From positions 1 through 64,000 of the forward strand of contig JAQGDQ010000054.1 in assembly GCA_030141605.1 (NCBI GenBank): 64,000 bases of DNA, given 5' to 3'. Both the position numbers and the translations under genes were made by a program. Positions 43,301-49,300 of the stretch are shown in pieces. Position 1 is the first letter of the stretch. Each line of letters begins with the position of its first letter. The stretch is from Tubiluchus corallicola (lineage: Eukaryota; Priapulida; Priapulimorpha; Priapulimorphida; Tubiluchidae). The notes beneath the pieces are model-generated. The model had not been told where the DNA came from. It worked only from the letters and a program-made list of their open reading frames with translations, and did not search any database.

Positions 43301-46300
43301 ATTTATATTAATTCTCTGATGAAGAATGCTGGCAATATAATTGAGTGATATGTAATATGCAAATGTTTTTTATTCAAATTATTTTGTCACAACTCCACTG
43401 AATACATATGTGATTGAAATATTTGTTGAACTAAGTAGGCTTTTATATATCTATTCGTCAGTTAAGCAGCAAAAGGTAAACAAGAACTACTGAACTGTAG
43501 TAGTGTAATATAGTAACACAGTTATTAATGCCATATTGTGGATTGTAACTATTTGTGAAAATTCTGCTTGGATTAAATGATGTTTTTTGCTTTTTTTATT
43601 TTCAGAAATATAGGATGGTGCCTAATAGAAATCCGTTTGTATTTGATTTATTTAAACATTGCTATGATCCAGATGTTCTCTCGTCTAACAAGTAAGTTTG
43701 TCTTTATCTTTATTAGTTGTGTTATTTATTTTTGTTTAATTATTTCTTCTTCTCAAATTTATACATTATGCAATATTTTATTTTTATATTTTATTAAGAA
43801 TTCTGTTTTTTTCAATTCAAGTAAAAGTATTAAAAGCAATAACGTTTTGAGAGTTACATCAGATATATATATATAGATAGAATAGATACCTAATTAGACA
43901 GAAGGTATAGCAAGAGAAATAACCTTTAGATTTTTATTATTACAGATTACACTGCACCACAAGTTTGAACAATTTTGATTTGACTTTTGCTGCCACCTTA
44001 ATTCACTTTAATTTGCCATTTAAAAAATGTAAAACTGTACATAATAAAACTTGATTTGGTCACCAGTCTATAGCAGATGTGTTTATATAATTATGGTGTC
44101 ACAGAGTCTTAAAGTTTATAGTTTATTATTTTTATAGCATATTATCTCATATTTCATGTTCTTAAACAATGTATGGTCTCATTATGATGGTAATTCGTCC
44201 TAGTTAGAAATTTTATGTCACATTTTTGGGGACTTTTAAAGCACTCCAAAAGACTGCTAAAGTAAGTTCTTGCTTAACGACCGTAAAACTCGTTAAACGA
44301 AGCCAGGTTTTCCAGAGGAAGTAATGTAAAACTTTGAGGTACGCTTCATGGGAAAAAATCAGTAATGCTTAGTTCGTATAAATTAAACATTTTGTGTGAT
44401 CAACACATATTCGTACTGTTTAATTTTTTTCCACTTGCCTTGAATAAACCGCCTATCATTTTATCTATACCTTGCTGGCCACTTCTTTCAAGCTGCTCTT
44501 TTAAAACAGCTATGAATCCGTTGTTTTAGTGCAAATAATATGCCTTGTTGTGTTATGGCTGCTGGCGAAGTGATAATTTTGCAGCTAAGTAAAACTTTAC
44601 TAAGACAATTTCATCTAGGCATTAGTTGCTGTAGGAACAGTTTTAGGAAGAGATCCTTTGTAAAAAGGTTTGTAAGATTTGTGCAATTACCAAATGATGA
44701 AATAGATTTCTTGTTTGTTAGAACTGTAGTCTTTGCAGTCTTGAGCATTTGGCAGTCCATCACGAGAGAAAACATAAAATTATATTGTAGACTACATGGT
44801 TTTTATATTACTAGCAGCTCTTTTGAACTGAATAAAGGCAACAAGTAGTATTTTAGTGATCCAAATTAGGTAAAAAAGTTGTTATTAAAGTAAAAAATTG
44901 CTTTGAGCAAAGTCAGATAATCGTCGTTAACATGAAATTTGCATCGTTAAGTGAACCAAGGCATCAAATATTTGGTGTCGTTAAAATGAAACGTCTCTAA
45001 ACAGGACATCGTTAAGCAAGGACTAATTGGATTTTAACTATTTTATTATTAGGACAAATATGAACTGCAGGCTAGCATGCAAGAAAGCCTGTGAAAAATG
45101 GCCGTGTCCTCAAGGAGGACAGAACTTCGAAGGCCATGGCTGCGTGGATACATATGACAACACTGAGTGTTTGAAAGACATTGATCGACGAGTCGAGTCT
45201 GGTGATTTAGATGAAAGTTATGCAGACACTCATAGGGTTCATAAAGGTTGTTTCAATACCAATGTACTGAATGTACCATGTAAGTACTTTCTATATATAA
45301 AATAATATTGAAATACTTTCTGTGGAAGTTCGTACCGAATTTAAGGAGTTTTATGTTTTGCAAAACTTTGCTTATCAGCAAAAACTTATCAGCTTTTCAA
45401 CTTATTTTGTGGAAAAATAAACAAAATCACGTGACAAATTTAGGAGTCGTTGCAGTAAATCAAGTAATATGGCTCTGCCTTTGTGCAGTAACTCATCATG
45501 GTATTGTCTTGCTGCTTAAAGTTTTCTCATAAGTACGAATGTATGGTATTTGTGTGCAGCTGTTTTTTTGTAAATTATCCTGAAATCGATTATCCGTTTC
45601 GTACGAAATTAATTGATTATGAAAATGCAACTGGTGTTCCACCACTACGAAGTAAGTAATGAATAGATAAATAGCTATAGATTACTTAGTTTATTATCAG
45701 TTTGTGCATTATACCATATGAATAGCATCGTCAGCCATACTTCACTACAGTGCTTCGCTACAGTGTATTGACTCAAGGCACTTTTCTGTGTAATGACTTG
45801 CTGTTAGAAAAACATGGTTCGATGTAACATGATATGACGCTTTATGTATATTTTTGTGACAGTGAGCTATATGTAAGTTTTTAAAACACATTCACAGCTT
45901 ACATTCTTGGCGGGTTGGATGATGTTGAAGAAATGACAGTGCCATGGTTCGAGAAAAAGGTGACTCATGAAAATGCTTCAGGGGTTCCAATTTATGAATT
46001 CCAAGCCATCGAAATGCTTTCTGACACGAAATATGACATTTTGTAAGCAACTACAAAAGTATCTATACTCTTATATTAATATTCTTGGTATCTTAATATA
46101 TATATAAGATTCGAGGCTACAGCTCCGACGACGGCACCATTTGCGGCGATCTATACATCAAACGAAAGGTCTCGATCTAGTGTCGTGCCATTGATGGTTT
46201 ATTTTTCGAATCGGGCCCACCGGGAGGAACGGGAGGCGAAAAACCTCCAAAAATGGCCATTTTTCGGCCGTTTTTTGCAAAAGTTATACGGCTGAGATGT

Positions 46301-49300
46301 TTAGAACGGGAACGGGCCGAGGGGGTGCTGGGTATGGATAGATAGCCCGTTCAGCGGTGGGTGTAGTAGGCCTATTTAGAATTCCCGAGAGGGCCAGGGC
46401 GCCCCGCAACGGGCGTTTTCCCGGACCCAACTCGCGATTTTTTCGAAATTTTGACCAAACAGCATGCGGGAAAAACGTTCTAGCGTCGCCCGGTGGGACT
46501 CTAGGAAGGAGATATATAGCTCATCAGAAAGAGGAAGGATAGGGCTATACGATGATGTGGGCTATATGTTAGGGCAGGTGCACCGAGAGGAGTACTAGCG
46601 AGTTAATTAGATGTTCTATTTTTCGCAATTTTCGCTTAGAAAACTGCTGACGCAAAGCCATTGTTCTGACGTCATCCATTGTACTCTGCTGTAATCTTAT
46701 TCAGCAAAAAGCTGCCTGCTACGGGTTTGCGTTACATAAACAGACAATACAGTAGGCAGGATGTTACGGGCTTTGTGTAATAAATGAGGACTAGGTAGGA
46801 TGTTCGCGTGTTATTGATTATACGTGTTTTTTTACGCAAAATCTTTTGCGGGGCCTTTGCTAGTCTCTTATATTAATATTCTTGGTATATATATTTATAT
46901 ATAAGATTCGCGGCTACAGCCCGGACGAGGGCACCATTTGCGGCGATCTATATATCAAAAGAAAGGTCTCGATCTAGTGTCGTCTCATTGGGCGTTTATT
47001 TTTCGAATCGGGCCCACCGGGAGGAACGGGGGGCGAAAAACCTCCAAAAATGGCCCTTTTTCGGCCGTTTTTTGCAAGAAATTGCAAAAGTTATACGGCT
47101 GAGATGTAGAGAACGGGAACAGGCCGAGGGCGGTACTGGGTATGGATAGATAGCCCGTTCAGCGGTGGGTGTAGTAGGCATATTTCGAATTTCCGAGAGG
47201 GCCAGGGCGCCCCGCAACGGGCGTTTTCCCGGACCCAACTCGCGATTTTTTCGAAATTTTGACCAAACAGCATGCGGGAAAAACGTTCTAGCGTCGCCCG
47301 GTGGGAATCTAGGAAGGAGATATGGGGCTCTTTACAAAGAGGAAGGACAGGGCTACACGATGATGTGGGCTATATGTTAGGGCAGGTCCACCGAGAGGAG
47401 TATCGACGAGTTAATTCGTGTTCTATTTTCCGCAAATTTCGACAATTTTCGCCTTAGAAAACTGCAGACCGCATTCCATTGTGCTGACGTCATCCATTGT
47501 GTCTATAACTTTAATTCAGCAAAAAAGCTGGTTTGCAACATACAGTAGGCAGGAGTAAACGCTGCTGGCTTTGCGTTAGGTAAGTAGGCAGGATGTTACG
47601 GGCTTTGTGTTATAAATGAGGAGTAGGTAGGATAGTCGCGTATTATTCATTACACGTGTATTTATACGCAAAATCTTTTGCGGGGCCTTTGCTAGTCTAT
47701 CTATACATCAAACGAAAGGTCTCGATCTAGTGTCGTCTCATTGATGGTTTATTTTTCGAATTGGGCCCACCGGGAGGAACGGGGGGCGAAAAACCTCCAA
47801 AAATGGCCATTTTTCGGCCGTTTTTTGCAAAAAATTGCAAAAGTTATACGGCTGAGATGTAGAGAACGGGAATGGGCCGAGGATGATGCTGGGTATGGAT
47901 AGATAGCCCGTTCAGCGATGGGTGTCATAGGCCTATTTAGAATTCGCGAGAGGGCCACGGGGTCCCGCAACGGGCGTTTTCCTGGACCCAACTCGTGATA
48001 TTTTCGAAATTTTGGCCAAACAGCCTGCAGAAAAAACGTTCTAGCGGCGCCTGGTGGGACTCTCGGAAGGAGATATATAGCTCTTTAGAAAGAGGAAGAA
48101 CGGGGCTACACGATGATGTAGACTACATTTTAGGGCATGTCCACCGAGAGGAGTACTGGCAAATTAATTAGATGTTCTATTTTTGGCAATTTTCGCTTAG
48201 AAAACTGCTGACGCAAAGGCATTGTTGTGACGTCATCCATTGTACTCTACTCTGCTTATAACTTTAATTCAGCAAAAAGCTACAGGCTTTGCGTTAGTTA
48301 AACAAACAGTAGGCATGATGTTACGGGCTTTGCGTTATACATGAGGACTAGGTAGGATGTTCGCGTATTATTCATTACACGTGTATTTATACGCAAAATC
48401 TTTTGCGGGGCCTTTGCTATATCTATTATATTAATATTCTTGGTATATATATATATATATATATATAAGATTCGAGGCTACATCCCGGACGAGGGCACCA
48501 TTTGTGGCGATCTATACATCAAACGAAAGGTCTCGATCTAGTGTCGTGCCATTGATAGTTTATTTTTCGAATCGGGCACACCGGGAGGAACGGGGGGCGA
48601 AAAACCTCCAAAAATGGCCATTTTTCGGCCGTTTTTTGCAAAAGTTATACGGCTGAGATGTAGAGAACGGGAACAGGCCGAGGGTGGTGCTGGGTATGGA
48701 TAGATAGCCCGTTCAGCGGTGGGTGTCATAGGCCTATTTAGAATTCCCGAGAGGGCCACGGCGTCCCGCAACGGGCATTTTCCCGGACCCAGCTCGCGAT
48801 TTTTTCGAAATTTTGATCAAACAGCCTGCGGAAAAAACGTTCTAGCGTCGCCTGGTGGGACTCTCGGAAGGAGATATACGGCTCATCAGAAAGAGGAAGA
48901 ACGGGGCTACACGATGATGTGGGCTATATGTTAGGGCAGGTCCACTGAGAGGAGTACTGGCAAGTTAATTGGATGTTCTATTTTCGACAATTTTCGCTTA
49001 GAAAACTGCTGACGCAAAGCCATTGTAGTGACGTCATCCATTGTACTCTGCCTATAGCTTTAATTCAGTAAAAGCTACAGGCTTTGCTTTAGTTAAGCAA
49101 ACAGTAGGCAGGATGTTACGGGCTTTGTGTTATAAATGAGGACTATGTAGGATGTTCGCGTATTATTGATTACACGTGGTTTTTTACGCAAAATCTTTTG
49201 CGGGGCCTTTGCTAGCTTATATTGTTATTTTACCGTGTATTGTTTATTTATAATTTATGTTGGAAGTGTTCTCAATGATTAACATCATTTTTTTACTCAA

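Follow-up and report, generated by a model that had tools for sequence, protein, structure and literature searches.

Head-to-tail Helitrons are known from bats, maize, rice, silkworm and fungi, and in those parts of the literature that were available to us they are often taken as rolling-circle products, while distantly related Helitrons lying directly side by side are also mentioned for bat and maize. Tandem Helitrons were reportedly described by Pritham and Feschotte (2007) in Myotis lucifugus and by Xiong et al. (2016) in plant centromeres, and are said to have been attributed to a bypassed terminator or to rolling-circle amplification. Here, we describe a head-to-tail array of four Helitron units in a 64,000-nucleotide stretch of the genome of the priapulid Tubiluchus corallicola (assembly GCA_030141605.1, contig JAQGDQ010000054.1, positions 1 to 64,000 of the forward strand; hereafter the window), together with the family to which these units belong. 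The junctions are head-to-tail as in the Myotis and plant centromeric elements, but here the units of one array appear not to be sisters. The array probably arose as a stack, from four independent insertions of a canonical Helitron that is non-autonomous; comparison with related copies suggests that each new copy entered at the front of one already present, rather than having been made as part of a chain. Tandem Helitron arrays are quoted as natural evidence for rolling-circle transposition; most of those sampled here look like repeated 5'-end insertion, and caution is needed in taking such arrays as proof of concatemers. Stacking of this kind would also offer a route from a dispersed element to satellite-like DNA.

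Several described systems come close to this arrangement. For adjacent head-to-tail Helitrons in maize (Du et al. 2008, PMC2267711), the part of the paper available to us raises two orders of insertion, in one of which a host A and the 5' T of the resident element serve as the A/T target. The maize pair, like the units studied here, has CTAG joined to TC with a G/T junction between dissimilar units; it is, however, one pair of unrelated elements whose order was left unresolved, whereas the single family studied here has hundreds of junctions, split 5' ends among them, together with a bias towards one motif. Fusarium Helitrons (PMC5148889) show self-insertion and copies with two 5' termini, and for one triple the portion of the text consulted leaves open the choice between 5'-end insertion and rolling-circle replication. 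As here, a copy lies at or in the 5' end of another, but the Fusarium elements are of Helitron2 type with other targets, the cases are few, and no motif or spacing rule is given in the text examined. The autonomous, reconstructed Helraiser/Helibat1 (PMC4778049, PMC5876387) has the same structure as the present element (a hyphen marking element boundaries, A-TC, hairpin, CTAG-T), and forms circles with CTAG joined to TC as well as products of 3'-end bypass; self-targeting is not described in the text examined. As far as our searches go, the portions of the literature covered hold no earlier description of nested 5' ends across one family, of an ATTAAT bias, or of a difference between long and short 5' ends. 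The element itself is an ordinary Helitron, and the variant lies in the way in which its arrays form.

The array and its family

The features of the array are as follows.

46043..49425, + strand: host intron of a REJ-domain (polycystin-1-like) gene, with the array inside; GT donor at 46043 and AG acceptor ending at 49425 placed by eye, REJ exon elsewhere in the window
46062..46863, + strand: unit 1, long 5' end TCTATACTCTTATATT after A, CTAG end
46864..47695, + strand: unit 2, short 5' end TCTCTTATATT fused directly to CTAG
47696..48419, + strand: unit 3, about 65 bp gone near the 5' end (TCTA retained), ending in CTA without G
48422..49215, + strand: unit 4, short 5' end TCTATTATATT after A; C comes next
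46835..46850, + strand: 3' hairpin of unit 1
47667..47682, + strand: 3' hairpin of unit 2
48392..48407, + strand: 3' hairpin of unit 3
49187..49202, + strand: 3' hairpin of unit 4
46076..46080, + strand: TTAAT of unit 1, at +15, in the long form v1, which was never found after G
46873..46877, + strand: TTAAT of unit 2, at +10, in a short form that often adjoins CTAG
48431..48435, + strand: TTAAT of unit 4, at +10

The units, of 802, 832, 724 and 794 bp, are 89-93% identical in pairs, have a G+C content of 45-47% as against 34% for the window, and share an identical hairpin followed by a CTAG-type end. This hairpin, CGCAAAATCTTTTGCG, is exact at 46835, 47667, 48392 and 49187, and with up to three mismatches no further site occurs in the window (eight matches, that is, four sites read on both strands, with 0.74 expected). 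A preliminary description of the window, made from its letters, had proposed a four-unit, head-to-tail array of Helitron-like elements at these places, and both the array and its character hold, with many single copies found elsewhere. Its start at 46069 has to be moved: the 5' boundary of unit 1 is 46062, at A-TCTATACTC, because single copies elsewhere start at A-TCTATACTCTTATATTAATATTC. Direct joining of the units, also claimed there, is seen as CTAG-TC between units 1 and 2; units 3 and 4 are instead joined as CTA-TA-TC, the final G being absent from unit 3 and TA lying between the units at 48420-48421. The gap of about 65 bp in unit 3, which had been noticed and read as a truncation, looks like an internal deletion rather than a 5' truncation made by transposition, because TCTA is still present at the front of the unit.

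Canonical Helitrons are recognized by a 5' TC beside a host A, a 3' CTRR beside a host T, and a hairpin of 16-20 bp lying 10-15 bp from the 3' end. The usual single copy of this family starts A-TC and ends CTAG-T, some copies being deleted at the front and one (L004 among the sampled loci, which carry L numbers) being without TC. In the sampled loci, every exact v1 end (15 of 15) and every exact v2 end (10 of 10) follows A (5' forms defined below), and TCTATA belongs to the element, as read by eye at L048. The host 3' flank begins with T in 26 of 27 cases, six of the 27 flanks being trinucleotide runs; ends that lack the final G are not part of this set, nor is a remnant of the family in L052. 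The boundaries thus coincide with TC and CTAG, as the preliminary description had anticipated. The hairpin is a 16-nt palindrome ending 13 bp before the end, and with its tail it folds at -7.5 kcal/mol (RNA parameters). Helentrons and HINEs insert in TT, whereas the boundaries here are A^T, the caret marking the insertion point. Helitrons should not make target duplications, and none is apparent in most of the flanks read. The copy in L004 (C16:53375-56390) has TCTAAATTAAAAGA on both sides, which resembles a target duplication of 14 bp. Empty sites were not found; the left flank of the window array occurs in one place only in the assembly, so that the empty allele sought for comparison is absent from it.

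In the 343.5-Mb assembly there are 503 exact hairpins (two for the reversed control). Loci were sampled around part of 100 listed places among these 503 (8 loci, 40 regions and 4 later additions), drawn from the first contigs of the hairpin list and requiring an intact hairpin. The family is a dispersed, non-autonomous, canonical Helitron. A neighbour within 2.7 kb is present on the same strand for 45 of the 100 listed hairpins and on the opposite strand for 4, where random placement predicts less than 1% with any; 51 to 55 have no neighbour on either strand within that distance. Tandem arrays are thus not the sole form, as they would be in a satellite, and the search for dispersed single copies that had been recommended finds them. 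One strict gapped pattern detects 230 head-to-tail junctions genome-wide (control 0); such arrays, which the earlier remark had called not often seen intact, are not rare here.

The units take two forms. Form A is about 0.8 kb long with a CTAG end, while in form A'B an A body ending in CTA continues into block B, which is GT-rich, measures about 0.6-1.4 kb and has a hairpin and CTAG of its own. On a tree of 74 units of at least 550 bp (L003, L018 and L024 dropped as overlapping or duplicate), which is weakly resolved (8 of its 71 inner branches are starred), the A/A'B label shows strong clustering, requiring 9 changes against a shuffled mean of 22.6 (0 of 500 shuffles as low), and A'B therefore looks like a composite moving as one unit. 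Bypass of the 3' end, as described for Helraiser in the part of PMC4778049 consulted, suggests itself as a process that would generate A'B. Copies in contigs C75 (L018/L019) and C126 (L024/L025) appear twice, in opposite orientation and with identical flanks, and C1752 and C1831 carry arrays with equal spacing; these repeats are likely haplotype duplicates or assembly palindromes.

Front ends, stubs and target motif

A Helitron inserting between A and T, and itself starting with T, would remake A^T from the host A and its own T, and therefore each copy would carry a fresh target at its front. Later copies, moved by a putative Rep-helicase enzyme, could enter this remade A^T, or another A^T in the A+T-rich first 20 bp, in the same orientation. 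The outcome would be CTAG-TC junctions, with the host A, sometimes together with a 5' stub, staying at the front of the array. In the window, unit 4 (short form) would have come first and unit 3 would have entered two bases ahead of it; units 2 and 1 would then have inserted at or near the front, with the host A each time left in front, and unit 3 would afterwards have lost about 65 bp behind its first TCTA.

Intact 5' ends after a host A are of three kinds, namely the long forms v1 (TCTATACTCTTATATT) and v2 (TCTACTATTATATT) and the short forms v3/v4 (TCTMTTATATT). Genome-wide, exact ends after A number 203 for v1, 168 for v3/v4 and 54 for v2, while after G there are 0 for v1, 1 for v2 and 140 for v3/v4, the last joined to the CTAG of another copy; these counts, being exact matches after A or G, are lower bounds.

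A copy landing at an A^T inside an older 5' end should leave the older front part before the array. Junctions that resume past TC, deeper in the 5' end, were found in 8 of 38 cases (L002, L008, L029, L036, L037, L042, L043 and L047), with L040 added from a separate reading; the call was made by eye, and odd but untruncated starts (L007, L020, L046) were excluded. At four of these nine, the stub rebuilds a known 5' end exactly: TCTACTA + TTATATT at L037, TCTCTTA + TATTAATATT at L029, TCCCTTA + TATTAATATT at L047, and at L002 a stub that was looked for upstream and found there, in L051. Two others (L040, L042) have a compatible stub, although no listed form is rebuilt. One of four 7-bp stubs precedes 7 of 34 exact exposed 5' ends (6 of 34 without the weaker L001 form), compared with 50 of the 60,926 remaining A^T sites of these loci (p 2e-15). 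At the front of L047 (C307), separately, TCTATA is repeated before the 5' end of the first unit, as if through an accumulation of several 5' stubs or the growth of a microsatellite.

The best surviving rival invokes homologous recombination between a Helitron circle and a copy already in place, behind whose 5' end a unit would be added. Such recombination would account for the same orientation, for unrelated units and for long 5' ends staying in front, but it does not predict stub and suffix pairs that rebuild one 5' end, and a v1 circle should yield CTAG-TCTATAC junctions, of which none was found; we regard it as unlikely.

The host targets show a sequence bias. ATTAAT occurs at +2 to +15 in 8 of 27 host flanks, compared with 8 of 771 control windows placed farther from the insertion in those flanks (p 6e-9), and TTAAT starts at +9 in six flanks, at +7 in two and at +8 in one. 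The element's own 5' ends also carry the motif, the short forms at +10, v2 at +13 and v1 at +15. The family would thus favour an A^T with ATTAAT about 8 bp downstream, and short 5' ends would be preferred targets because they carry this motif. Short 5' ends are joined to a CTAG end in 140 of 308 cases and long ones in at most 1 of 258 (p 8e-44), the denominators being exact 5' ends that stand after A or are joined to a CTAG end; a preceding A does not always mark an array front, unit 4 of the window being one such case. Among 100 listed of the 230 junctions, read by eye, TTAAT lies at +9 to +11 in 89, and v1 or v2 is found in none.

Something on one side presumably sets the direction of insertion, because A^T alone is symmetric, and ATTAAT on the T side would do so. 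We tentatively propose, as a possibility with somewhat less than an even chance, that target recognition depends on spacing, an A^T having to be followed by ATTAAT at a distance of about 8 bp, that the element's own short 5' end satisfies this rule, leading to self-homing, and that forms 3-5 bp longer escaped by placing the motif out of register. The longer 5' forms are perhaps double 5' ends left by earlier self-insertion. If true, one spacing rule would provide both self-targeting and self-immunity in a eukaryotic rolling-circle transposon, and the suggested rule of target recognition is open to a simple plasmid assay. That long 5' ends are merely younger was also considered and is not supported, as end branches of v1 and short forms are alike (p 0.85). 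Tested for inheritance, the 5' form shows only weak clustering on the unit tree (19 changes versus 21.8, 38 of 500 shuffles as low), and the label of long versus short requires 13 changes versus 15.0 (91 of 500 as low).

Relatedness of units within arrays

Over the 74 units, mean identity is 0.910 for units of the same array (50 pairs) and 0.907 for units of different arrays (2,651 pairs). The four units of the window sit in four places of the tree, needing 4 changes, and the array label is unclustered overall (39 changes against a mean of 40.2 after shuffling, with 148 of 500 shuffles as low; 37 versus 36.7 without L020). For 43 of 49 units of multi-unit arrays, the nearest sampled relative lies elsewhere. 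To judge from these comparisons, the units of one array are, with exceptions, not sisters. Forms are also mixed within arrays, for example as A-B-A-B-A in L029 and A-A-A-A-B in L020. Three units of L020 (C91) are best mutual matches at 97.6-98% and share the same odd junction CTAG-TTCATATATT; on the strength of these likenesses, L020 is a true local tandem amplification, unlike most sampled arrays.

These results bear on the reading of the array as a product of rolling-circle amplification, which the preliminary description had favoured. In this concatemer model, the enzyme would run past the 3' end and make several successive copies of the element, and the resulting multimer would be inserted in one event. 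Perfect CTAG-TC junctions in the same orientation and the three near-identical units of L020 are what it would produce, and tandem arrays are cited as support for rolling-circle transposition or terminator bypass in the parts of PMC5876387 and PMC4067079 available to us. However, same-array units are about as unlike as units of different arrays, those of the window are not sisters, A and A'B are repeatedly mixed, the long end v1 of the first unit stands 203 times after A and never after G, and nested stubs point to separate insertions, so a concatemeric origin is very improbable. Unequal crossing-over or another satellite-like expansion from one founding pair is equally improbable, as it fits L020 with its repeated junction but neither the 43 of 49 units related to copies elsewhere nor the solitary half or so of the listed hairpins.

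Several observations, on the other hand, weigh against stacking by 5'-end insertion as set out above. Among the nine truncated junctions, no stub matches L036, where the sequence resumes at C instead of T, or L043; L008 allows no judgement, and nothing useful was found upstream of it. Conversely, the stubs at L001 and L039 have no known partner in the sampled sequence. TTAAT stands at +3 to +8 in ten and at +14 in one of the 100 junctions listed. In ungapped comparison, host flanks are no more similar to the 5' end of the element than other A^T sites are (p 0.30), the ATTAAT motif alone being enriched. The last unit of the window is followed by C, the sole exception among the 27 flanks. The nearest neighbour lies in the same array for 6 of 49 units (three in L020, two in L043, one in L028), where 1.4 would be expected at random. 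Finally, a gradient of age along arrays is absent, the end branch being shorter for the upstream than for the downstream unit in 16 of 31 neighbouring pairs, and the stacks would therefore have grown quickly relative to the age of the family, or their order would not be strict.

Partner search and host gene

An autonomous Rep/helicase partner sharing the ends of the family, which had been suggested as a target for search, was not found in the searchable sequence. One Helitron_like_N (Rep) match and eight PIF1 matches occur in the assembly, and no A or B ends are present in the readable parts near the Rep locus L050 or six of the eight PIF1 places, nor in L061. In L050 (C2069:4000-13900), the Rep domain lies beside OTU-like frames, in a Helentron-like arrangement; we take these frames to be OTU-protease-like from their motif, and no helicase frame of at least 90 amino acids lies downstream among the frames listed. 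In L055, an open frame strongly matches the PIF1 helicase (E 1.2e-52) and resembles the C-terminal portion of the RepHel protein of Helitrons; element ends were not found there.

The host intron measures 3,383 bp, or 229 bp without the array when splice sites are placed by eye, slightly less than the 240 bp or so estimated before. In another part of the window, one exon gives a match to the REJ domain PF02010 (E 1.4e-7), while a second REJ match (E 0.063) is below the cut-off, and ten other exon or reading-frame queries against Pfam gave no relevant family. The polycystin gene named in the preliminary description thus fits in one part, the polycystin-1-like label being drawn from a single REJ-domain exon. 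The window also contains two microsatellites of 154 bp each, (TTA)n at 11211-11364 and (ATTAG)n at 50607-50760.

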